In this document: one piece after another, positions 273-33,938 of the stretch
Layout: every line of letters begins with the position of its first letter
How positions within the stretch are numbered: the first letter of the stretch is position 1
From: Aestuariivirga sp.
GTDB lineage: Bacteria > Pseudomonadota > Alphaproteobacteria > Rhizobiales > Aestuariivirgaceae
Length of the DNA: 41,229 nucleotides
Direction of reading: 5' to 3'
Assembly: GCA_030680855.1 (NCBI GenBank)
Contig: JAUXUN010000040.1
Location: 1 to 41,229 of the forward strand
Notes under the pieces: model-generated
The model's database searches: none
Seen by the model: only the letters and a program-made list of their open reading frames with translations
What the model was told of the DNA's origin: nothing
Program-made: the position numbers and the translations under genes

Positions 273-2744
273 TCACGATGCCACATATTCTTGCGACTTG
301 TAGGACAACCTGCTGGTCGAAGGTGTAGCGTCAGAAATCTTCCTGATGTTCGCCCAAGTGTGCTTGTAGTTAGGCAGGATCAGCTCGTTGACACCCGCAT
401 TGACGATGTTTCCCTGCGCACCATTCGGCGCGCCGAACACCATGAAGGTTTCCTTCCGACGGGCCGTTGGCGTTGGATAGACCAAAGCCTGGGTCGCCCC
501 GACATCGTTATATACCTCCACCAGATCACCCTGCTTCAAATTCAGTTCCGCCATGTCCTCCGGATTGATCTCGATGAATGGCAAGGGAAAGCGGTCGGAC
601 ACGAAGTCGTTGCCCTTGTCGAGGAACCAGTTCTGCCAGATGATGTTTGCACGGCCGTTGTTGATGAGGAACGCATAATTGTCTCTCTGCGCGGCTTTTC
701 CAGCCGCCTGCAATCCGCGCCATTGGCCGGCGCAGAACAGAGCCTTCTTGTCTTCGCGGCCATGCCGGTCGAACTTGCCGTCAGCATAGAGGCGCTTCAC
801 TCCCACAAGCTTGCCGTCCTGGAAGTCAACGACCGGTTCCTGAACGCCGTTGTTGCCCATGGCACGTAGCCGCTCATAGGTGACAATCTTGCCAGTGTTG
901 GCATGGTATCCATCCATGAAGGCATCTTCTTCCGACTTCCAGTCATAGCCCTTGAACTGGTCCGCATATTCACTGCGGCCCTGCTCACGAATAACGCGTT
1001 CCAGATGCTGGGCCATGCCCGCCGCGATCATGCAATCAGGCTGTGCAGAACCCGGACCATCCATGTATTTCTCGACCAGGCGCATACGGCGCTCACCGTT
1101 CATGGAGGTCAGGTTCATCTCGCCCGATTCCACTGCAGGCAGGATCACATGCGCGGCCTGGCCGATTTGACTGTGGATGATGTCCACATTGACCGAAAAC
1201 AGTCCGCCTGCATTGATCGCGCCGACGATGGCATCGACCAGTTCCTCACGGGTGGCTCCAGCGCGGGCGTCCATGGCGTCCTTCACCATGTTGGTGCGGC
1301 GATTATACTCCCGCTTGAAGGCCGTAGCATTGAGCGTCGTCTTGTAGTGGTCGTTGGCCCAGACGTGGTGGACTTTGCCCTTTCCAGCGATCAATAGCTG
1401 ATCGATGTAAGGCGCAGGACGGCCCACATGGGCATCGGATGGCCGCATATAGCCTTCCTGGTGGCCGCCGAGACGGCAGACGCCGCCGCCTTCGCGGCCA
1501 ATGTTGCCGGTGGCGAGGCCAATGTTCACCAGCGTGCCGATGGCGCGATAGTTATCATTGCCCCAGATGATGCCCTTCTCATAGGCGGTCACGCATTTGC
1601 GGCGCGATCCATCATCTTTTGGCTTGGCGATCCACTCGGCGGCTTTCACGATGTCGGCTTCCGATACGCCACAGATCGCGGCGCCATCAGCCAGAGACGT
1701 CCGGCATTCCTGCAGGGCGAACTCGAAACTGCCGAGCGCTGCCGGATGAGCTTCATCCAGCGGCTGGGCGACATCGCCCTGAAAAGTGGAATTCGCGATG
1801 AATTCCTTGTCCACCCAACCCTGATCAGCGATATAGGTGAAGAGCGTGTTGAACAAGGCGACATCGGTGCCTGTCTTGATGGCCAGATGGAGAACATTGT
1901 CCTTGCCGGCTTCGACTTCGCAGGCGTTAGCCGTCACTGTGCGGCGCGGATCGACGATGATAACCTTCGCGCCATTCCGCATCCCCGGAACCATATGATT
2001 GAGAAAGAGGTTGGTCTGGCACTCCAGGGGATTGGTGCCAACGAGGAAGATTGTGTCCGTCATCGTGTAGTCTTCATAGGCGTAGTTGAGCTCGCCCACA
2101 CCCATGTCACGGGTCGAATGCACCTCCGAATTATAGGCGGGACGATTATGGATGCGGCAATGCTTCACCTTCATGGACTCGAAGTAGAGCTTGCCGGTGC
2201 CCCAGGTATTTTCGTAGCCGCCAGCCGATCCACCATGGTCGAACATGGACACGAAGAGATCGTCCTCATTGTCCTTGTCGATAACCCGCGCGGTAACGCG
2301 GGCCACGAGATCAAGTGCGTCGTCCCAGCTCGTCGGTTGCCACGTGCCATAACGCCAGATCATCGGCTCTTCGAGGCGTTGTTGCTGTGTGCCAGTCTTG
2401 TCGGAACGGCGATTCTCGGCCATGCGCGCACCGCGCACGGAACCCAGCCCCGAATTAACGCTGCATTCCTTGTCAGGCTTGACGACAAGATGCACATCCT
2501 TGCCGTTCTGCTTGACGACATTATACATTGATGGCGAATACCAAGCCTCGCTGTTGGCCGGTTGCTGCTTCGAGAGATCGACGCCGAGCGCATTCTCGTT
2601 CGGAGCGGTGCCCCCCTGCTTGTTTACCGGCCATGTATAGGCATTGTAGCCGCAGCCCACGATGCAGTAGTGGCAAGTGACGTTGTGCTTCGTTGCGTCC
2701 GCAGGGATGATCGGCAGACGGTCGATGTTTCGTTTGAAAGCCAT
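273..2744 (-). CDS. aioA: Arsenite oxidase large (molybdopterin) subunit AioA
   Basis: This 823-residue protein is the catalytic subunit of periplasmic arsenite oxidase. It oxidises arsenite to arsenate at a bis-molybdopterin guanine dinucleotide molybdenum and passes electrons to a [3Fe-4S] cluster. The cluster ligands are visible as C24, C27 and C31 (CHYCIVGC). S102, in GLGSVRG, stands where most family members have a fourth Cys, which is the hallmark of AioA. The length matches known AioA proteins. It has no signal peptide, as is usual, because it is exported folded with the Tat-signal-bearing AioB. The ATG at 2744 follows a strong GGGAGGA ribosome site. The gene lies 13 bases behind aioB in the same transcript and ahead of a terminator. 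No cytochrome c gene follows, unlike several rhizobial clusters. Confidence 0.97.
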   Translation of the reverse strand: MAFKRNIDRLPIIPADATKHNVTCHYCIVGCGYNAYTWPVNKQGGTAPNENALGVDLSKQQPANSEAWYSPSMYNVVKQNGKDVHLVVKPDKECSVNSGLGSVRGARMAENRRSDKTGTQQQRLEEPMIWRYGTWQPTSWDDALDLVARVTARVIDKDNEDDLFVSMFDHGGSAGGYENTWGTGKLYFESMKVKHCRIHNRPAYNSEVHSTRDMGVGELNYAYEDYTMTDTIFLVGTNPLECQTNLFLNHMVPGMRNGAKVIIVDPRRTVTANACEVEAGKDNVLHLAIKTGTDVALFNTLFTYIADQGWVDKEFIANSTFQGDVAQPLDEAHPAALGSFEFALQECRTSLADGAAICGVSEADIVKAAEWIAKPKDDGSRRKCVTAYEKGIIWGNDNYRAIGTLVNIGLATGNIGREGGGVCRLGGHQEGYMRPSDAHVGRPAPYIDQLLIAGKGKVHHVWANDHYKTTLNATAFKREYNRRTNMVKDAMDARAGATREELVDAIVGAINAGGLFSVNVDIIHSQIGQAAHVILPAVESGEMNLTSMNGERRMRLVEKYMDGPGSAQPDCMIAAGMAQHLERVIREQGRSEYADQFKGYDWKSEEDAFMDGYHANTGKIVTYERLRAMGNNGVQEPVVDFQDGKLVGVKRLYADGKFDRHGREDKKALFCAGQWRGLQAAGKAAQRDNYAFLINNGRANIIWQNWFLDKGNDFVSDRFPLPFIEINPEDMAELNLKQGDLVEVYNDVGATQALVYPTPTARRKETFMVFGAPNGAQGNIVNAGVNELILPNYKHTWANIRKISDATPSTSRLSYKSQEYVAS

Positions 2745-2757
2745 GATTTATCCTCCC

Positions 2758-3279
2758 TCAGAGCACGTTCGACAGGCGGCCGTAGAGCAGTTCATCGACG
2801 CCTTCGGCGTAGATGTCGCCCTTGTCATCGACGCGCAGCCTGTATTGCGGCAAATTCTGCGTGGCCTGTCCCCAGGTCTGCTGGCCACCCGCTTCGCAAT
2901 CGAAGACCGAGTAGTGGCCGGGACAATTCATCGTGCGGCTTTCGGCATTGTATGAAAGCGGGAAACCCTTGTGCGGGCAGACCGTGGTGAAGCCGACGAT
3001 GTCGCCATCGGGACCAACTCCGCCTTCCACAGCCTTGCCCAATTTCAACAGAACGCCTGGCGCATCCTCGTCAGGATAAGAAACCTCCATTGGCTCGTTG
3101 AGTTTAAGATCGTTGACATTGGCGAGCTTTCCCGAGGGGTAATCAAGCAATGCACCGTTCGTGGCGGCTTTTGCATCCTTGGCCATAAGCCCCACCATTG
3201 GCAGTGCTGCGGCGGTAGCTAGTCCTCCGCGCAGAAACTGGCGGCGCCCAACTTCGACAAGTTTGTCACATCTTTTCAT
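2758..3279 (-). CDS. aioB: Arsenite oxidase small (Rieske) subunit AioB
   Basis: This 173-residue protein is the Rieske [2Fe-2S] partner of AioA. A twin-arginine signal (GRRQFLRGG, residues 11-19, then a hydrophobic stretch to an A-K-A-A cleavage region near 39) exports the AioAB complex to the periplasm. Cluster ligands are C101 and H103 (CPH) and C119 and H122 (CPGH). The two extra cysteines that form a disulfide over the cluster in the Alcaligenes enzyme are replaced by F106 and G121, the same substitutions known from the Rhizobium NT-26 enzyme. The ATG at 3279 has a GGGAG ribosome site. The gene leads the aioBA transcript, behind the palindromic sites at 3399-3453. Confidence 0.96.
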   Translation of the reverse strand: MKRCDKLVEVGRRQFLRGGLATAAALPMVGLMAKDAKAATNGALLDYPSGKLANVNDLKLNEPMEVSYPDEDAPGVLLKLGKAVEGGVGPDGDIVGFTTVCPHKGFPLSYNAESRTMNCPGHYSVFDCEAGGQQTWGQATQNLPQYRLRVDDKGDIYAEGVDELLYGRLSNVL

Positions 3280-3398
3280 GGCAGATCTCCCATTGCAGAA
3301 ACTTTGTTGCTTGGGGACATGCTAGACGGATTTTGGGGAGTGGCTTATTTGCAGTGCAGCAATTTGGGATTGATTGTTTACAGCGACTTAGCCCAATG

Positions 3399-3420
3399 CA
3401 TGTTCGGAAATCCGGACATG
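3399..3420. promoter_or_regulatory. Promoter-proximal palindrome, probable AioR site
   Basis: The arms CATGTTCGGA and TCCGGACATG, separated by AA, form an inverted repeat with one mismatch. It shares the core GTTCGGA-AA-TCCG with the palindrome at 3432-3453, and the two centres are 33 bp apart, three helical turns. It lies about 120 bp upstream of the aioB start. Twin sites on one helix face are typical of enhancer sites for NtrC-type regulators. Assignment to AioR is inferred from the neighbouring gene. Confidence 0.7.
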
Positions 3421-3431
3421 CTGCGGTTGCG

Positions 3432-3453
3432 AAAGTTCGGAAATCCGAACTTT
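3432..3453. promoter_or_regulatory. Promoter-distal perfect palindrome, probable AioR site
   Basis: AAAGTTCGGA and its exact complement TCCGAACTTT flank a two-base centre: a perfect palindrome with 10-bp arms. It begins five bases past the aioR stop codon. It is the stronger of the two copies in the aioR-aioB gap. I found no canonical GG-N10-GC sigma-54 promoter between these sites and aioB on either strand. Confidence 0.75.
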
Positions 3454-3457
3454 GCCT

Positions 3458-4777
3458 TCAGCGGAACTCTCCGGTAATTTCTAGCCGACGCATCTTCTCC
3501 CACAGAGTCGTGCGGGAAATGCCAAGAAGCTTTGCTGCTTCAATGATATGGCCATTGGTTTCCTTGATGGCGCGCTCGATCTGGCGGCGTTCGGCAAAGT
3601 TGCGCGTCTGGGAAAGTGTCGCAAAGGCCTGGATCAGTGGGTGTTCCGATTCGACGAGATCGGGGAACAGATCCATAGGCATGATCCATTCGCCGTTTGC
3701 CAAGGTCAAGGCCCGTTCCACCCGGTTCTTCAACTCGCGCACGTTGCCGGCCCAACTGTATTCGAGGGCTGCTTCCTGTGCCAATGTGCTGAAACCCTTG
3801 GCGCTTCGACGATCACCGTGTTGAAACTGTTGGAAGAACAGGTCCATAAGCCAGGGGATGTCATCTGGCCTGCTCCTGAGAGCGGGCAATTCAACACTCA
3901 TGGCATTTATGCGGTAATAAAGGTCTTCACGAAAGCGGCCTTCTCGTACCGCCGCCGTAAGATCGCTATTCGTAGAGCAGACAATGCGGCCGTGGAACTG
4001 CAGCAATTGCTCGCCACCCACCCGGTTGAATTCGCGCGTCTCCACCAGCCGCAAGAGCTTGGCTTGGAATTGGGTTGGCAGTTCCGCGACTTCGTCCAGA
4101 AACAGGATGCCGCCGCGTGAACGCTCGGCAAAACCGCGATGAAAGCCGGTTCCTCCCGTGCCTTTGTGGCCAAAAAATTCATTTTCCATGAAATCGGCGG
4201 GGATCGCCGCACAATTGACCCCAATGAAGGGCTCCTTTGAACGTTGCGAGACGCGATGCAGGAAGCGGGCACAGACTTCTTTTCCAACTCCCGTTTCACC
4301 CGTAATGAGAAGTGGAGTGGTTCGGTCGCTGACCCGCCTTAGCATGGTTTCAATACTGCGCATGGCGTCAGAGACGCCCAGGACGTCCTCCGCACGCAAC
4401 ATTGGATTGCGCAGTATCAGGCTTCGCGCCCGTTCGATGAAGGCACCGGTATCGAAGGGTTTGGTGACATAGTCGCTTCCCCCGGCCCGCATAATGGCAA
4501 CGGCCTGGTCGATGTCGCCATAGGCGGTCACAAACAGGAACGGTGGCACCTGGGAAGCAGCCGCGAGCTGCCGAAACAAGTCATCACCGTTGATGTCAGG
4601 AAGCTTGATGTCACAGACCACGAGATCGGGAGTTGTGGCCCGGAGGCTACGCAGGGCCTCCGCCCCCGTCTTCCACCAATCCACGTGACAGCCTTCCAGG
4701 GACAGGCTCTGCACCAGCGATTCACCCATTACGGGATCATCCTCGATTAGCCCAACCACGCGTCCATCAAGCAGCAT
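3458..4777 (-). CDS. aioR: Response regulator AioR, NtrC-type with atypical GAFTGA loop
   Basis: This 439-residue protein is the DNA-binding partner of AioS and should activate aioBA. Its receiver domain (about 5-120) has the phosphoacceptor D56 in VVCDIKLP and K106. Its AAA+ domain (about 130-365) has Walker A GETGVGKE at 160-167, Walker B ILFLDE at 224-229 and a REDLYYR arginine-finger region at 283-289. A Fis-type helix-turn-helix occupies about 398-434. The sigma-54 contact loop is abnormal: after FGH comes KGTGGTGFHRG (204-214) instead of EKGAFTGA, and the stretch to Walker B is three residues shorter than in NtrC. Family members without GAFTGA, such as TyrR and Rhodobacter NtrC, work with sigma-70. 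The 5' end overlaps aioS by 11 bases. Confidence 0.93.
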   Translation of the reverse strand: MLLDGRVVGLIEDDPVMGESLVQSLSLEGCHVDWWKTGAEALRSLRATTPDLVVCDIKLPDINGDDLFRQLAAASQVPPFLFVTAYGDIDQAVAIMRAGGSDYVTKPFDTGAFIERARSLILRNPMLRAEDVLGVSDAMRSIETMLRRVSDRTTPLLITGETGVGKEVCARFLHRVSQRSKEPFIGVNCAAIPADFMENEFFGHKGTGGTGFHRGFAERSRGGILFLDEVAELPTQFQAKLLRLVETREFNRVGGEQLLQFHGRIVCSTNSDLTAAVREGRFREDLYYRINAMSVELPALRSRPDDIPWLMDLFFQQFQHGDRRSAKGFSTLAQEAALEYSWAGNVRELKNRVERALTLANGEWIMPMDLFPDLVESEHPLIQAFATLSQTRNFAERRQIERAIKETNGHIIEAAKLLGISRTTLWEKMRRLEITGEFR

Positions 4778-6236
4778 CTTCTAACTCCGCAAGCTTTGGC
4801 TGCACTACCAGCCTGATGGTCGTGCCCGAAGCACTGCTTTTTACCACAATGAGTTTTCCGTTCATTTCATCACAAAGGCGCTTCACAATCCAGAGCCCCA
4901 GTCCAGATCTCTTATCAAGGGGAACGGACCCTGCCCCGTTACGTTCAAGGTATTCCCGGATATGAGCCGGAAGCCCGCCCCCCTGATCCGAGACATCTAC
5001 AACCAATGCGCCACTTTCGATCCGCGCATGAAACTTGACACTGCCGTCTTCGGCGCTCGACGCGCAGGCATTGAGCAACAGATTGAGCACCGCATCGCGA
5101 ACCGGAACGGCAGGAACATGAACCGCTTCGGTGATTTCGTTCGTCCATTCTAGATTGAGCCTCTTGCGCTTGGCTTCAGGCTTTACCAACAGGCGGAGGT
5201 CATCAAGGTCAACCATGGTGAGGTCCCTTGGACGCTGGTCGGCACGATAGGAGGCTAGCGTGGAGCGAACGAGGTCGCGAATGCCGGTCAAACCATGCTC
5301 CAGCAAACGAATGGAGGTCGCACGAACCTGCTCGCGCGTCCCATGCTTTTTAAGCGCATCCAAGGCGTTGAACATGCCGCCGAGCGGATTGTTGATTTCA
5401 TGCGCCATGCCCGAAGCAAGTCGGCCAAGGCTTGCTACTTTCTCTTCCTCAGCCAGTTGCACGGCCAGAAATTCGCGCTCATTCACCGCCTGCGACAGGA
5501 CATTGTAGCGGCCAAACAGGCGGCGAAACTCGCTGCTTTGGCGCATCACGATTGAATCCGGAATGAGATTGATCTTGCCCTGGCTCGCCTGGTCGAGATG
5601 CAGCGACATGATGCGAACCGGCCTCATCATGCGCAAGACAGCCAGATACCCGACAATTGCCAGGACAAAGGTGAGCAGAAGATTGGTAAGAAGCAAAGTT
5701 CGCAGCACGTCACTGCGCTCCTGCAACAACGCGCCGATATCAGCCTCCGCATAAATTTTGCCGATTTCACGGTCCTGATAGGGCAATGGTCTCAACAGGA
5801 AGGCAGTGGCTTTGTCTTCATTGAGGATGACTTCCCGGCCAGCGGTGAAGTGCGCCAGAACCTCTTTTTCCGCAACCGTGTCAGAAGGGAATTTGGCTGG
5901 ATCACTTGCTGCCAATATCTTCCCTTCGGCATTGGTGACAATCGTCCATCGCACATTCAGTCCTCTGTAACGCTCTCGCGACCTATCCAAAGTATCGAAG
6001 ACTTCCCAAACATCGCCGCGAAACACCGAGGGAATGAGCGAGGCCGACAAGCCATCCAGATAGGCCGAGGCGAGTTGCTGAAGGTGCTGTTCCTGATTTT
6101 CTTCGAGACGGGCCAGAACGCGATTCGTGATGATGGCGCTTACGGTGAACATAAGCACCGCCACAAGCAGGGGCACTTTGAACGACAGTGGCCAGGTCAT
6201 GGGGTTTAGCCGGCTAACTGGATTTGCCCCGCTCAT
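4767..6236 (-). CDS. aioS: Arsenite-responsive sensor histidine kinase AioS
   Basis: This 489-residue inner-membrane kinase phosphorylates AioR. Two membrane segments (about 19-38 and 180-203) enclose a periplasmic sensor region of about 140 residues, followed by a HAMP-like linker. The dimerisation box SGMAHEINNPLGG carries the phosphoacceptor H279. The ATPase domain has N389 (LNLLLNAC), DQGGGLP at 417-423 and GLGLW at 445-449. The gene overlaps aioX by ATGA and aioR by 11 bases, so the three are translationally coupled. In known systems arsenite-loaded AioX signals to the periplasmic part of AioS. Placement between aioX and aioR makes the assignment firm. Confidence 0.94.
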   Translation of the reverse strand: MSGANPVSRLNPMTWPLSFKVPLLVAVLMFTVSAIITNRVLARLEENQEQHLQQLASAYLDGLSASLIPSVFRGDVWEVFDTLDRSRERYRGLNVRWTIVTNAEGKILAASDPAKFPSDTVAEKEVLAHFTAGREVILNEDKATAFLLRPLPYQDREIGKIYAEADIGALLQERSDVLRTLLLTNLLLTFVLAIVGYLAVLRMMRPVRIMSLHLDQASQGKINLIPDSIVMRQSSEFRRLFGRYNVLSQAVNEREFLAVQLAEEEKVASLGRLASGMAHEINNPLGGMFNALDALKKHGTREQVRATSIRLLEHGLTGIRDLVRSTLASYRADQRPRDLTMVDLDDLRLLVKPEAKRKRLNLEWTNEITEAVHVPAVPVRDAVLNLLLNACASSAEDGSVKFHARIESGALVVDVSDQGGGLPAHIREYLERNGAGSVPLDKRSGLGLWIVKRLCDEMNGKLIVVKSSASGTTIRLVVQPKLAELEDAA

Positions 6237-7132
6237 GATCCCAGTCCCCTCACCAGCATCATTTTCGCAGCAATCGTGTCGAAAAGTGTCTCGGGTTCAT
6301 CGGCAAAGCCATCGAGCTTCAGCATGTTGAGGACATGCCTACCCTCGTCGTCCTCCGACATCTCGATTAGCGCCTTATGTAACAACTCAACCGCTTCTGA
6401 CAGTCTCTGGGTCCGCAGACAGGCAACCGGTGGAAATCCTAGCAGTTCCGAGACGGCAACAATTTCAGTTTTGGCAGTGAGTTCGGGTTCAAGTGATGAC
6501 ATCACTTCCCACACATATCCATCGACGCTTCCGCTCTGGGCCAGCCCTGATGCAACGGCCCGAACTACATTGCGGTGCCCGTAAGTGAAGATCGTCTGGC
6601 GGAAAAACTGGTCGGGCCTAAGTTTTCGTTCCGCCAGCAGTGATGCAGTGACCAGATACCCAGAATTGCTGTTCGGGTCAGAGAAGGCGTGAATGTCACC
6701 TTTCAAGTCTTCAATGCTGGTTGCCACCCGTCCCTTAGGGGCAATCAAATAGGACTGATAGAGCGGCTTGCCGCGCCAGACCGGGACGGCGATCAATGAC
6801 AACTGCTGGCGGAACTGGGCGAAGGGGTAGCCGCAGATCCACGCGCCATCTAGTTGACCAGAAAGCAACAGGGCTGTGATCTCCTCATAAGTGCGCCGTT
6901 GGATCAGTTGCACGTCGCGCCCGGTCTTGCGTGAAAGATAGGCCTTCAATCGCGTCAACAGTTCGAGATCATTGGTCAGGAACACAGGTGTAAGGCCAAA
7001 GTTAAGCGCAGATAATGCATTCGCAGCAGTCGCTGTGCGGCTCATAGCAAACAACGCACTACCGCCGATCAATGCACTGAATTGGCGTCGTGAAGGACTC
7101 TTGGTCTGGTTCTTAGAGGCAATGTATTCCAT
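6233..7132 (-). CDS. aioX: Periplasmic arsenite-binding protein AioX
   Basis: This PhnD/phosphonate-type substrate-binding protein, 299 residues from the chosen ATG, senses arsenite for AioS. A twin-arginine signal (SRRQFSALIGG, residues 14-24) precedes the mature domain. The single Cys in AWICGYPF (C100 from this start) matches the arsenite-binding cysteine known to be essential in Agrobacterium AioX. The frame stays open to 7273, but the upstream 47 residues do not look like a signal peptide, and starting at 7132 places the Tat motif near the N-terminus. The ribosome site there is weak (GGCAGCGG), so a non-ATG start slightly upstream is possible. The stop overlaps the aioS start. Confidence 0.92.
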   Translation of the reverse strand: MEYIASKNQTKSPSRRQFSALIGGSALFAMSRTATAANALSALNFGLTPVFLTNDLELLTRLKAYLSRKTGRDVQLIQRRTYEEITALLLSGQLDGAWICGYPFAQFRQQLSLIAVPVWRGKPLYQSYLIAPKGRVATSIEDLKGDIHAFSDPNSNSGYLVTASLLAERKLRPDQFFRQTIFTYGHRNVVRAVASGLAQSGSVDGYVWEVMSSLEPELTAKTEIVAVSELLGFPPVACLRTQRLSEAVELLHKALIEMSEDDEGRHVLNMLKLDGFADEPETLFDTIAAKMMLVRGLGS

Positions 7133-7192
7133 ACCGCTGCCAATTCTAATCAGCCCTTGAGTTATGTCCAGTTTTTCAAAGCATCTCCCTTG

Positions 7193-7220
7193 ATAGTACA
7201 ATGCCCACAAAATTCCGCAA
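7193..7220 (-). promoter_or_regulatory. aioXp: Possible sigma-70 promoter for aioX
   Basis: The minus strand reads TTGCGG (7215-7220), a 16-base spacer, then TACTAT (7193-7198) preceded by TG, about 60 bases before the aioX ATG. This resembles a -35 / extended -10 promoter. It would give the sensor genes their own expression, apart from aioBA. It is called by eye only. Confidence 0.35.
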
Positions 7221-7334
7221 CGCAGCATTGATTGTGAAACTGTGCTTGACAAGTTCAGCAGCGCCGTGACCATACCGAAAGCGCGCCGATTGGGAGAACC
7301 GGGGTGAACTGCTTTGTCTCAAAACTTTCAGAAA

Positions 7335-31457: not shown

Positions 31458-32651
31458 TTAGCGCATCAACTCGAGGCCAATGGCGGTCGCCTCGCCGCCG
31501 CCTATGCACAACGTAGCAATACCCTTGCGGGCATCACGGGCGATCATGGCGTGAAGTAGTGTCACTACAATGCGCGCACCCGATGCGCCAATGGGATGGC
31601 CCAGCGCACAAGCACCGCCATTGACGTTGACGATATCCCCAGGCAGGCCGAGATCGCGTATCGCCGCCATGGCCACAACGGCGAAGGCCTCATTGATCTC
31701 ATAGAGCTCCACCTCAGATGATCGCCAGTCAAGTTTTTCCAAAAGCGCGTTAACCGCGCCTATGGGAGCCGTGGTGAATTGTGCGGGTTCGCGCGCATGG
31801 CCGGCGTGGCCAGCAATGATCGCAAGCGGGGCCACACCGATTTTTTCCGCTTCCGAGGCGCGCATGAGAACCAGGGCCGCCGCACCATCGGAAATTGACG
31901 AGGAATTTGCCGCCGTCACTGTGCCGCCTTCACGGAAGGCCGGCCGCAATTGCGCGATGCGGCTGACATCGGCCTTGCCGGGCTGCTCATCGCGGTCGAG
32001 CCTAGCATGGTTCCTGCCCACCGCCTCATCGACACCAACCAGTTCCTTGCTGAATGCGCCCGAATCCAGCGCGGCACGGGCACGTTCAAGCGAAGAGATC
32101 GCATAGGCATCCTGTTGGGCGCGCGAGAACTGGTAGGCTTCGGCCGTGTCCTCGGCGTAGGTTCCCATAAGTCTGCCGGAATAGGCATCTTCCAGCCCGT
32201 CAGTGAACATGTGGTCTTTGACCTCGCCGTGGCCCAGGCGCAAGCCGCCGCGCGCTTTGGGCAGGAGATAGGGCGCGTTGCTCATCGATTCCATGCCGCC
32301 CACCACGACTCGGGCGTTGCTGCCGGCTGCAATGCTGTCGTGGCCGAGGATCAGCGCCTTCATGCCTGAACCGCAGACTTTTGAGACAGTAGTGGCTGGA
32401 ACGCCCTGCGCTAAACCAGCACCAAGGCAGGCCTGCCGCGCCGGATTCTGGCCCACGCCCGCCGGCAGGACATTTCCCATGAAGACTTCGTCCGCGGATG
32501 ATAGGCCGCTCTGCTCCAGGGCCGACTTGATGGCAATCGAACCGAGCCGTGGTGCGAAAAGGCCCGACAATGCGCCTTGAAAACTGCCGATGGGCGTGCG
32601 TTTCGCCGCGGTGATGACGATGGGGTCCTGTTCCGTTATCATGATCTCCAT
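31458..32651 (-). CDS. Acetyl-CoA C-acetyltransferase (thiolase)
   Basis: A 397-residue degradative/biosynthetic thiolase. Active-site residues are C93 ([12 protein letters not shown]), H352 ([13 protein letters not shown]) and C382 ([10 protein letters not shown]). It can cleave acetoacetyl-CoA, the end product of leucine degradation after CoA transfer, or 2-methylacetoacetyl-CoA from isoleucine. The open frame continues to 33407 across the divergent dehydrogenase gene, but the ATG at 32651 with GGAGG five bases before it is clearly the start. It lies on the opposite strand to its neighbours, its stop two bases from the citE stop. Confidence 0.93.
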
Positions 32652-32798
32652 AATGGCCTCCGGTGTTGGAAAAGCTTCGACTTCACTTTCCCAGCGTTCT
32701 GCCAATGCTTCGACAAGACTATTGCATCGGCAACAGGCAGTCGAGGCATCTTTCCAATATGTCGTAAATGGCCGATACTGGGACAAGAGGGTGTGTTC

Positions 32799-33938
32799 AT
32801 GCAATTCGACCTTACGGACGAACAACGTGCAATTCAGGACACGGCCCGCCGCTTTACAGCGGAAGCCATTACGCCACACGCCGCCCTGTGGGATGAGAAA
32901 TGCACGTTTCCGCGCGCCACGGTCAAGGCGGCAGCGGACTTGGGTTTCGGCGCCATCTGCGTTTCGGAAGCCGCAGGCGGCGCCGGACTCGGGCGGCTGG
33001 AAGCAGCGTTGATCATGGAGGCCATGGCCTACGGCTGCCCTTCGACCTCGGCCTTCATCTCGATCCACAACATGGCGGGTTGGATGATCGACCGCTTCGG
33101 CAGTGCCGCACTCAAGGCGAAATATTTGCCATCGCTCGTGACCTGTGACCAGCTTGCCAGCTATTGCCTGACTGAGCCGGACTCGGGCTCCGATGCATCG
33201 GCGTTGAAGACGCGCGCGGTGCGGGAGGGTGATTTCTATGTCGTTACCGGTTCCAAGGCCTTCATTTCTGGTGCTGGTGAGAATGAGATTTATGTCGCTA
33301 TGGTGCGCACCGGCGGCGAAGGACCCAAGGGCATCTCCTGCCTGGTAATTGAAAAAGACATGAAAGGCGTCACCTTCGGATCGCAGGAGAGGAAGCTCGG
33401 CTGGCATTCACAGCCCACCGCACAAGTGCATTTCGATCGTGTCCGTGTTCCGGTGGAAAACCTCGTGGGCGAGGAGGGGCAGGGCTTTCGCATCGCCATG
33501 CAAGGGCTCGACGGCGGGCGCATCAACATTGCGGCTTGTTCGCTGGGCGGCGCCCAACGCTGCCTTGATGAGGCTGTGGCCTATACGCGAACCCGCCGCC
33601 AGTTCGACCAGCCGATAGCCGAATTTCAGGCAACCCAGTTCACCTTGGCCGACATGGAAACGAATTTGCAGGCTGCACGTGCTCTGCTCTATTTCGCCGC
33701 TGACAAGGTGACCTCTGGAAGCCCCGATGCCACCCGTTTCTCGGCCATGGCCAAGCGCTTTGTGACCGACACCTGCATGCAGGTGGCCGACCGGGCGCTG
33801 CAGCTCCATGGCGGCTATGGGTATCTCAAGGATTTTCCCATCGAACGAATCTACCGCGATCTTCGGGTGCATTCCATTCTTGAGGGCACCAACGAGATCA
33901 TGCGGGTAATCATCGCGCGGGAGCTGCTGCGCCAATGA
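32799..33938 (+). CDS. Acyl-CoA dehydrogenase, probably isobutyryl-CoA dehydrogenase
   Basis: A 379-residue FAD enzyme. Typical stretches are YCLTEPDSGSDASALKT, GSKAFISGAGENEIYV, RKLGWHSQPTAQV, the Arg-rich TRTRRQFDQPI and the C-terminal LQLHGGYGYLKD and HSILEGTNEIMR. The last carries the catalytic Glu at the position used by short-chain and isobutyryl-CoA dehydrogenases. The two genes behind it, HIBCH and 3-hydroxyisobutyrate dehydrogenase, define a valine operon, which supports isobutyryl-CoA as substrate. The ATG at 32799 has AAGAGGG upstream; the longer frame to 32577 is rejected. Confidence 0.9.
   Translation: MQFDLTDEQRAIQDTARRFTAEAITPHAALWDEKCTFPRATVKAAADLGFGAICVSEAAGGAGLGRLEAALIMEAMAYGCPSTSAFISIHNMAGWMIDRFGSAALKAKYLPSLVTCDQLASYCLTEPDSGSDASALKTRAVREGDFYVVTGSKAFISGAGENEIYVAMVRTGGEGPKGISCLVIEKDMKGVTFGSQERKLGWHSQPTAQVHFDRVRVPVENLVGEEGQGFRIAMQGLDGGRINIAACSLGGAQRCLDEAVAYTRTRRQFDQPIAEFQATQFTLADMETNLQAARALLYFAADKVTSGSPDATRFSAMAKRFVTDTCMQVADRALQLHGGYGYLKDFPIERIYRDLRVHSILEGTNEIMRVIIARELLRQ

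Follow-up and report, generated by a model that had tools for sequence, protein, structure and literature searches.

Operons for arsenite oxidation controlled by aioXSR have been described as sigma-54 dependent. The arsenite oxidation response regulators AioR/AoxR of NT-26, Agrobacterium and Herminiimonas, the last taken from its paper only (PMC2848651), adjoin aioBA as does the regulator studied here; unlike it, they carry the GAFTGA loop and go with a -24/-12 promoter. In Herminiimonas, where a GAFTGA-bearing AoxR is described, an rpoN mutant is reported to lose arsenite induction (PMC2848651). Li et al. surveyed 12 aioXSR operons and list palindromes together with a -24/-12 element in all of them (PMC3834237). 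In the open-licence literature, we found no paper joining AioR and GAFTGA and none on arsenite oxidation, AioR and sigma-70 together, and among the papers listed for phrases like "lacks the GAFTGA" none is on arsenite by title. The operon examined here, judged by its sequence, breaks the rule of Li et al. that aioXSR operons have a -24/-12 element. Should our reading hold, 7 of the 31 order-sample genomes with aioR next to aioB would not be sigma-54 dependent in this respect, and predictions based on rpoN or on -24/-12 elements would miss them.

The window, a 41,229-nucleotide stretch of an Aestuariivirga contig, carries aioX-aioS-aioR-aioB-aioA in this order on the minus strand (Table 1). A first-pass annotation had read the L1 loop of AioR as KGTGGTGFHRG, with no GAFTGA; translation and alignment confirm this reading, and the range of 3977-4200 noted for it is wider than the loop but includes it. 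It had also held the distance from FGH to Walker B to be three residues shorter than in NtrC, and the stretch (KGTGGTGFHRGFAERSRGGI) is indeed shorter by three residues in alignments, both against NtrC-family proteins of known structure and against GAFTGA AioRs. The Walker A, Walker B, arginine-finger region and Fis-type HTH are intact in the alignment, as had been claimed, and sensor I and sensor II are present as well, while the receiver Asp (CDIKLPD) and the HTH (SRTTLWEKM) are conserved with the known AioRs. The window AioR thus has the AAA+ motifs of sigma-54-dependent enhancer-binding proteins and lacks their GAFTGA; its L1 loop is gone and its DNA-binding domain retained, as in GAFTGA-less activators of sigma-70 promoters. 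The further proposal that the AioXSR sensor chain is kept agrees with the presence of aioX and aioS upstream of aioR and with the retained AioR operators. Before aioX, neither an AioR operator nor a -24/-12 element was found consistently, the single better scores being an operator-like 14.8 in L126 and a -24/-12-like 13.4 in L209, and a plasmid search with the intergenic DNA gave no match. Elsewhere in the window, a thiolase ORF (31458-33407) has about 260 residues ahead of the thiolase domain without a Pfam match at E 1e-5, which could reflect a misassigned start or a genuine extension.

Table 1. Features of the aio operon and its upstream region, in window coordinates.
Feature	Position	Strand	Remarks
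aioA, large subunit	273..2744	-	TIGR02693
aioB, small subunit	2758..3279	-	TIGR02694; likely ribosome site GGGAG 3287-3291
Predicted -10-like hexamer TAGCAT	3319..3324	-	85 bp from proximal operator centre
TGCRNYGCA box TGCACTGCA	3350..3358	-	34 bp before the -10-like hexamer; 6/6 family clusters with aioB
Proximal AioR operator palindrome TGTTCGGAAATCCGGACA (+ strand)	3401..3418	.	score 26.5; 33 bp from distal
Distal AioR operator palindrome AGTTCGGAAATCCGAACT (+ strand)	3434..3451	.	score 22.0
aioR, receiver + AAA+ + Fis-type HTH response regulator without GAFTGA	3458..4777	-	439 aa
HTH	3482..3541	-	conserved with GAFTGA AioRs
Arginine-finger stretch GRFREDLYYR	3911..3940	-	intact
Walker B LFLDE	4091..4105	-	intact
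Shortened L1 loop KGTGGTGFHRG, replacing GAFTGA	4133..4165	-	aa 205-215
Walker A GETGVGKE	4277..4300	-	intact
aioS, sensor kinase	4767..6236	-	86% identical to aioS of L125
aioX, periplasmic binding protein	6233..7273	-	Pfam Phosphonate-bd

AioR has matches at E 1e-90 or better in 5 of the 37 genus genomes and 8 of the 69 family genomes. The loop region is readable in seven of those eight family AioRs, none of which has the GAFTGA loop (the window, L125, L126, L184, L185, L190 and L191). The alignment of this loop across many aio clusters, which the annotation had put forward as a check, shows six family relatives sharing the short form. Its residues vary among the loopless relatives, reading KGTGAAGFHRG in G775 (same genus, AioR 87% identical), and the family members L126, L184, L185, L190 and L191 have other letters in the same short loop. 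The eighth match, L186 (G788, same genus), is a broken aioS/aioR remnant with three stops inside the AioR match, and aioBA was not found in the stretch fetched from that genome. Sequencing error or a frameshift as the cause of the loop loss is rejected, since the short loop is common to the six family relatives and the frame is open. A pseudogene is likewise rejected for the window gene, with a dN/dS of 0.083 against L125. The value is 0.064 for L126-L190, 0.089-0.187 in three GAFTGA pairs and higher in other loopless lineages (0.31 for L151-L153, 0.19 for L205-L207); dS is saturated for L164-L187 and, in the window's family, for L184-L185.

To assemble the comparison set, samples of 385 class genomes and 397 order genomes were searched for AioR (13 and 39 with matches, respectively) and for arsenite oxidase TIGR02693 (10 and 34), the latter search avoiding selection by AioR score. 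It comprises 54 clusters with aioB downstream of aioR, 42 of the GAFTGA type (defined as G[AS]F[TS][GS]A) and 12 loopless. Among the 34 aioA-bearing genomes of the order, the AioR is of the GAFTGA type in 24 and loopless in 7 (G000, G608, G397, G400, G428, G549 and G634); for the remaining 3 (G395, G439 and G702), no such AioR is among the fetched stretches. Ten plasmid loci, including NT-26 and Agrobacterium, were fetched from among the matches listed (60 of at least 5000), and eight entered the set. In a further set of 80 loci, aio neighbours were examined for L002-L009; L002 and L003 entered, and L010-L081 were left out. The AioR matches G398:C241, G484, G512 and G680 were left out of the fetched stretches. 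Loci dropped were L004, whose aioB is on the opposite strand, L202, whose AioR is weak, and L203, L204, L206, L208 and L210, which have no AioR; loci whose stretch yielded no aioB or no AioR (L005-L009, L127, L154, L155, L162, L163, L165-L170, L172, L173, L186, L191, L199, L200 and L211) stand outside the set. Here, L187 was used in place of the badly cut L170, and L191 is loopless on a contig that stops short of aioB. A single genome contributes both L145 and L146, and the AioRs of L193 and L201 are identical.

The promoters before aioB divide in the same way as the loops. A weighted scan for TGGCACG-N4-TTGCW over the 250 bp before aioB (shuffled median 10.7, 95th percentile 12.4, 99th 13.2) has its top-scoring site between -50 and -73 in 42/42 GAFTGA clusters, with scores of 11.7-15.4 of 15.4. 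The 12 loopless clusters score 8.7-12.0, and in 11 of them the best stretch lies outside this interval; in L126 it lies inside and scores 9.7, under the shuffled median. The two ranges touch, as the GAFTGA cluster L144 reaches 11.7 and the loopless L207 reaches 12.0 at -238. Full separation of the groups is reached by a leave-one-out matrix confined to -100..-24 (shuffled median -2.1, 95th percentile 5.6, 99th 9.4), with a GAFTGA median of 17.0 and minimum of 8.9 (L144) against a loopless maximum of 0.1. L144 is weak in both tests, falling below the shuffled 95th percentile in the scan and below the shuffled 99th in the matrix. As a positive control, the site that the scan picks in NT-26 (TGGCACAACGATTGCA, L192) is the RpoN promoter printed for that strain (PMC6011840). 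A degenerate -24/-12 element in the loopless clusters is rejected, given that a bare GG-N10-GC in -95..-35 occurs in 1/12 loopless clusters (L126) against 38/42 of the GAFTGA type. The window's own aioB promoter has no -24/-12 element by either scan. Overall, loop label and promoter label are identical in 54/54 rows, a -24/-12-like site being present in 42/42 GAFTGA and 0/12 loopless clusters (p ~3e-12 if the clusters were independent, which, being kin, they are not).

The operators are retained. The palindrome TGTTCGGA-NN-TCCGAACA stands upstream of aioB in 42/42 GAFTGA and 12/12 loopless clusters. At least two copies at a score above 5 are present in 40/42 and 8/12, respectively, and adjacent copies usually have a spacing of 29-33 bp; no distal operator was found in the other 4 of the 12 loopless clusters, and some second copies are weak (5.6 in L135 and 5.4 in L158, where the shuffled 95th percentile is 5.8). 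The window has the tandem palindromes that characterize AioR systems, and they match those of Li et al. in kind and place, letters aside (PMC3834237). From the proximal operator centre to the GC of the -12 box, the 42 GAFTGA clusters fall into bands at 71-76 (11 clusters), 81-86 (28) and 94-95 bp (3), with none between. Such banding is what a need for the proteins to sit on the same face of the helix would produce, and it looks like helical phasing.

Downstream of the operator, the six family clusters that include aioB have a TGCRNYGCA box, a TAGNNT hexamer 34 bp on and then the ribosome site, and the hexamer keeps a distance of 84-86 bp from the operator centre in 6/6 despite a varying distance to the ATG. 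For the looser TANNNT, this distance is 83 in L151 and L153, 90 in L205, 91 in L207 and 76 in L164, and L187 has none at 70-100 bp. TANNNT at 83-86 bp is found in 8/12 loopless versus 0/42 GAFTGA clusters, and at 83-91 bp in 10/12 versus 1/42, in a distance window set after viewing the alignment and over rows that are kin within each lineage. The hexamer lies roughly at the usual place of the -12 box in most sister operons. A core promoter formed by a -10-like hexamer at a fixed operator distance is suggestive only; TAGCAT is weak, sharing 4 of 6 letters with TATAAT, and by eye no -35 hexamer was recognised in the loopless aioB promoters.

Since the clusters are kin, the association of loop and promoter has to be read on trees. 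We built an AioR tree without the loop columns and an AioS tree without rows of at most 380 aa (2/55). On the AioR tree, the loopless rows need 4 changes (bootstrap 5-95% range 4-4), of which the starred branches force 3, and a single loopless clade is rejected (p-AU 0.00018). The AioS tree likewise needs 4 changes, all 4 forced by starred branches, and rejects a single clade (p-AU ~2e-41). The four loopless groups are the window's family, L151 with L153, L164 with L187, and L205 with L207. A single origin of the loop loss is thus rejected by the AU tests under the models used; caution is called for by the long branch of L205 and L207 and by the AioR tree bootstrap, which had not settled. The independent pairs, 3 on starred branches and 4 on all branches, all agree in loop and promoter, and the tree-aware sign test gives p 0.25, as it cannot reach significance with 3-4 events. 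From these trees we infer that loop and promoter element were lost as a pair a minimum of three times, and probably four, across the sampled aio clusters.

The ATPase shows a graded loss. Its AAA+ motifs are retained, by alignment, in the seven AioRs of the window's family, and five of the six AioRs of the other three loopless lineages have lost Walker B residues, reading LGE in L153 (where Walker A has also changed Lys to Arg), LRE in L164, IED in L187, VNG in L205 and INA in L207. The sixth, L151, keeps Walker A and Walker B and is changed in the sensor I and R-finger stretches. This decay would be expected if promoter remodelling were no longer needed. Across the loopless AioRs, the receiver Asp is kept in 13/13 and the HTH in 12/12 (L191 being cut short); L205 and L207, despite their deleted L1 loop and missing Walker B, still have the receiver Asp, the HTH and a perfect operator. 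An explanation by loss of rpoN is rejected, because the gene was found in 7/7 genomes searched, including the window's own, six of which have a loopless aioR beside aioB; with rpoN still present, the change would be specific to the aio operon. The window's genome has seven matches to the sigma-54 activator domain, three of them weak, and the four strong ones comprise a protein with GAFTGA, one with GSFTGA, the loopless AioR and one more without the motif. L180, on C44 of this genome, is a second activator-type protein without GAFTGA.

In a quick AioA tree, from which rows of at most 700 aa (4/52) were omitted, one 14-row clade (SH-aLRT 100) holds 10 of 11 loopless and 4 of 37 GAFTGA rows, L126 being the exception. 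Loopless regulators accompany one AioA subtype in this tree, and because enzyme and regulator trees disagree, operon parts may have been exchanged. A second, distant AioBA type (AioA 41% identical) is present in L202, L203 and L208, with no adjacent aioXSR in the stretch, and G422 carries both types.

We consider it likely that AioR now activates a sigma-70-type aioB promoter, with AioXS sensing kept and sigma-54 remodelling gone. As in relatives, AioX and AioS would sense arsenite and phosphorylate AioR, to judge by the kept genes, receiver Asp and HTH, and phosphorylated AioR would bind the two palindromes, at about -97 (proximal) and -130 (distal) of the predicted start. It would then not remodel sigma-54 polymerase, because the protein is without the GAFTGA loop and the promoter without the -24/-12 element, and would instead recruit or stimulate housekeeping (sigma-70-type) polymerase at a promoter with the -10-like hexamer. 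The possible switch from sigma-54 to sigma-70 that the first-pass annotation had proposed is supported: the missing -24/-12 element before aioB and the kept operators speak in its favour, and the former, with the GAFTGA loop missing too, makes sigma-54 independence of the window AioR a strong inference. The sigma-70 replacement is a weaker one, drawn from the hexamer at its fixed place and from precedents, and the ATPase motifs intact in the window family, needless for a plain sigma-70 recruiter, count against it. On balance, though by a narrower judgement, we also favour the broader reading that a sigma-54 activator became a sigma-70 activator about four separate times in one metabolic operon by the same paired route: GAFTGA would have been lost, a -10-like element similarly spaced from the kept operator would have taken the place of the -24/-12 element, and the AAA+ ATPase would then have decayed in three lineages, the window family representing a stage with the ATPase intact.

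Other explanations must be weighed against this one. AioR could be a repressor or anti-activator that, unphosphorylated, loops the DNA between its two operators and silences a sigma-70 promoter until arsenite relieves it. The kept operators and HTH would suit such a role, and the GAFTGA-less NtrC of Caulobacter is described as repressing as well as activating (PMC10274813); the operator centres, 85 and 118 bp upstream of the hexamer, nevertheless lie where an activator would and do not overlap it, and we regard repression as unlikely. Slightly harder to credit is control of aioB by another regulator, with AioR an accessory or a relic. The TGCRNYGCA box, at about -42 of the predicted start in all six family clusters, would fit the place of a class II activator and corresponds to the core of the Bradyrhizobium PhaR consensus (PMC6201568), so that PhaR binding is a possible lead, with a carbon-store input to arsenite oxidation. 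Against such a regulator, AioR and its operators are under constraint, and the other three loopless lineages lack the box at this position. The presence of rpoN and the intact ATPase motifs of the window family would also be compatible with an AioR that still uses sigma-54, its GTGGTG stretch serving as an unusual loop at a promoter that goes unrecognised. We hold this to be very improbable, as the window promoter has no GG dinucleotide in -95..-35, no matrix match exists in any of the 12 loopless clusters, and the loop residues vary among relatives. Activation of a sigma-70-type promoter by AioR is the reading that we carry forward.

TyrR is an AAA+ activator-type protein without GAFTGA that acts at sigma-70 promoters. 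The same is described for VpsR (PMC10274813), and both, not being arsenite two-component regulators, are set apart from the window AioR by description, a match to the TyrR model aside. GAFTGA-less activators at sigma-70 promoters are thus already known, and what is new here is the arsenite system, the repeated origin and the matched loss in protein loop and promoter. The AioRs of NT-26 and Agrobacterium are 51% identical to the window AioR and have the same operator type. One close parallel is the NtrC of Caulobacter, which has lost GAFTGA and acts at sigma-70 promoters, as we propose for the window AioR, and for which there is evidence that ATP binding and hydrolysis are both needed (PMC10274813). 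That case concerns nitrogen genes in one genus (PMC10274813), whereas the aio losses are about four separate ones in one operon type, each without the promoter element. The NtrC of Rhodobacter capsulatus is likewise an NtrC-type regulator with the GAFTGA loop deleted and a further precedent for activation at a sigma-70-type promoter; described as a nitrogen regulator, it has a larger L1 deletion than Caulobacter NtrC and requires ATP binding, not hydrolysis (PMC10274813). By analogy, the window family, its ATPase motifs intact, may resemble either R. capsulatus NtrC, in needing ATP binding, or Caulobacter NtrC, in needing binding and hydrolysis. If our reading is true, the aio operons would amount to a repeated natural experiment on sigma-54 to sigma-70 switching, offering sister operons of either kind, an operator in common and a graded loss of the ATPase, so that the role of the ATPase without GAFTGA would be directly testable. 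The aio case further differs from that of R. capsulatus NtrC in its arsenite oxidation sensor chain, operator and promoter, and its sister operons with GAFTGA and a -24/-12 element allow a direct comparison.
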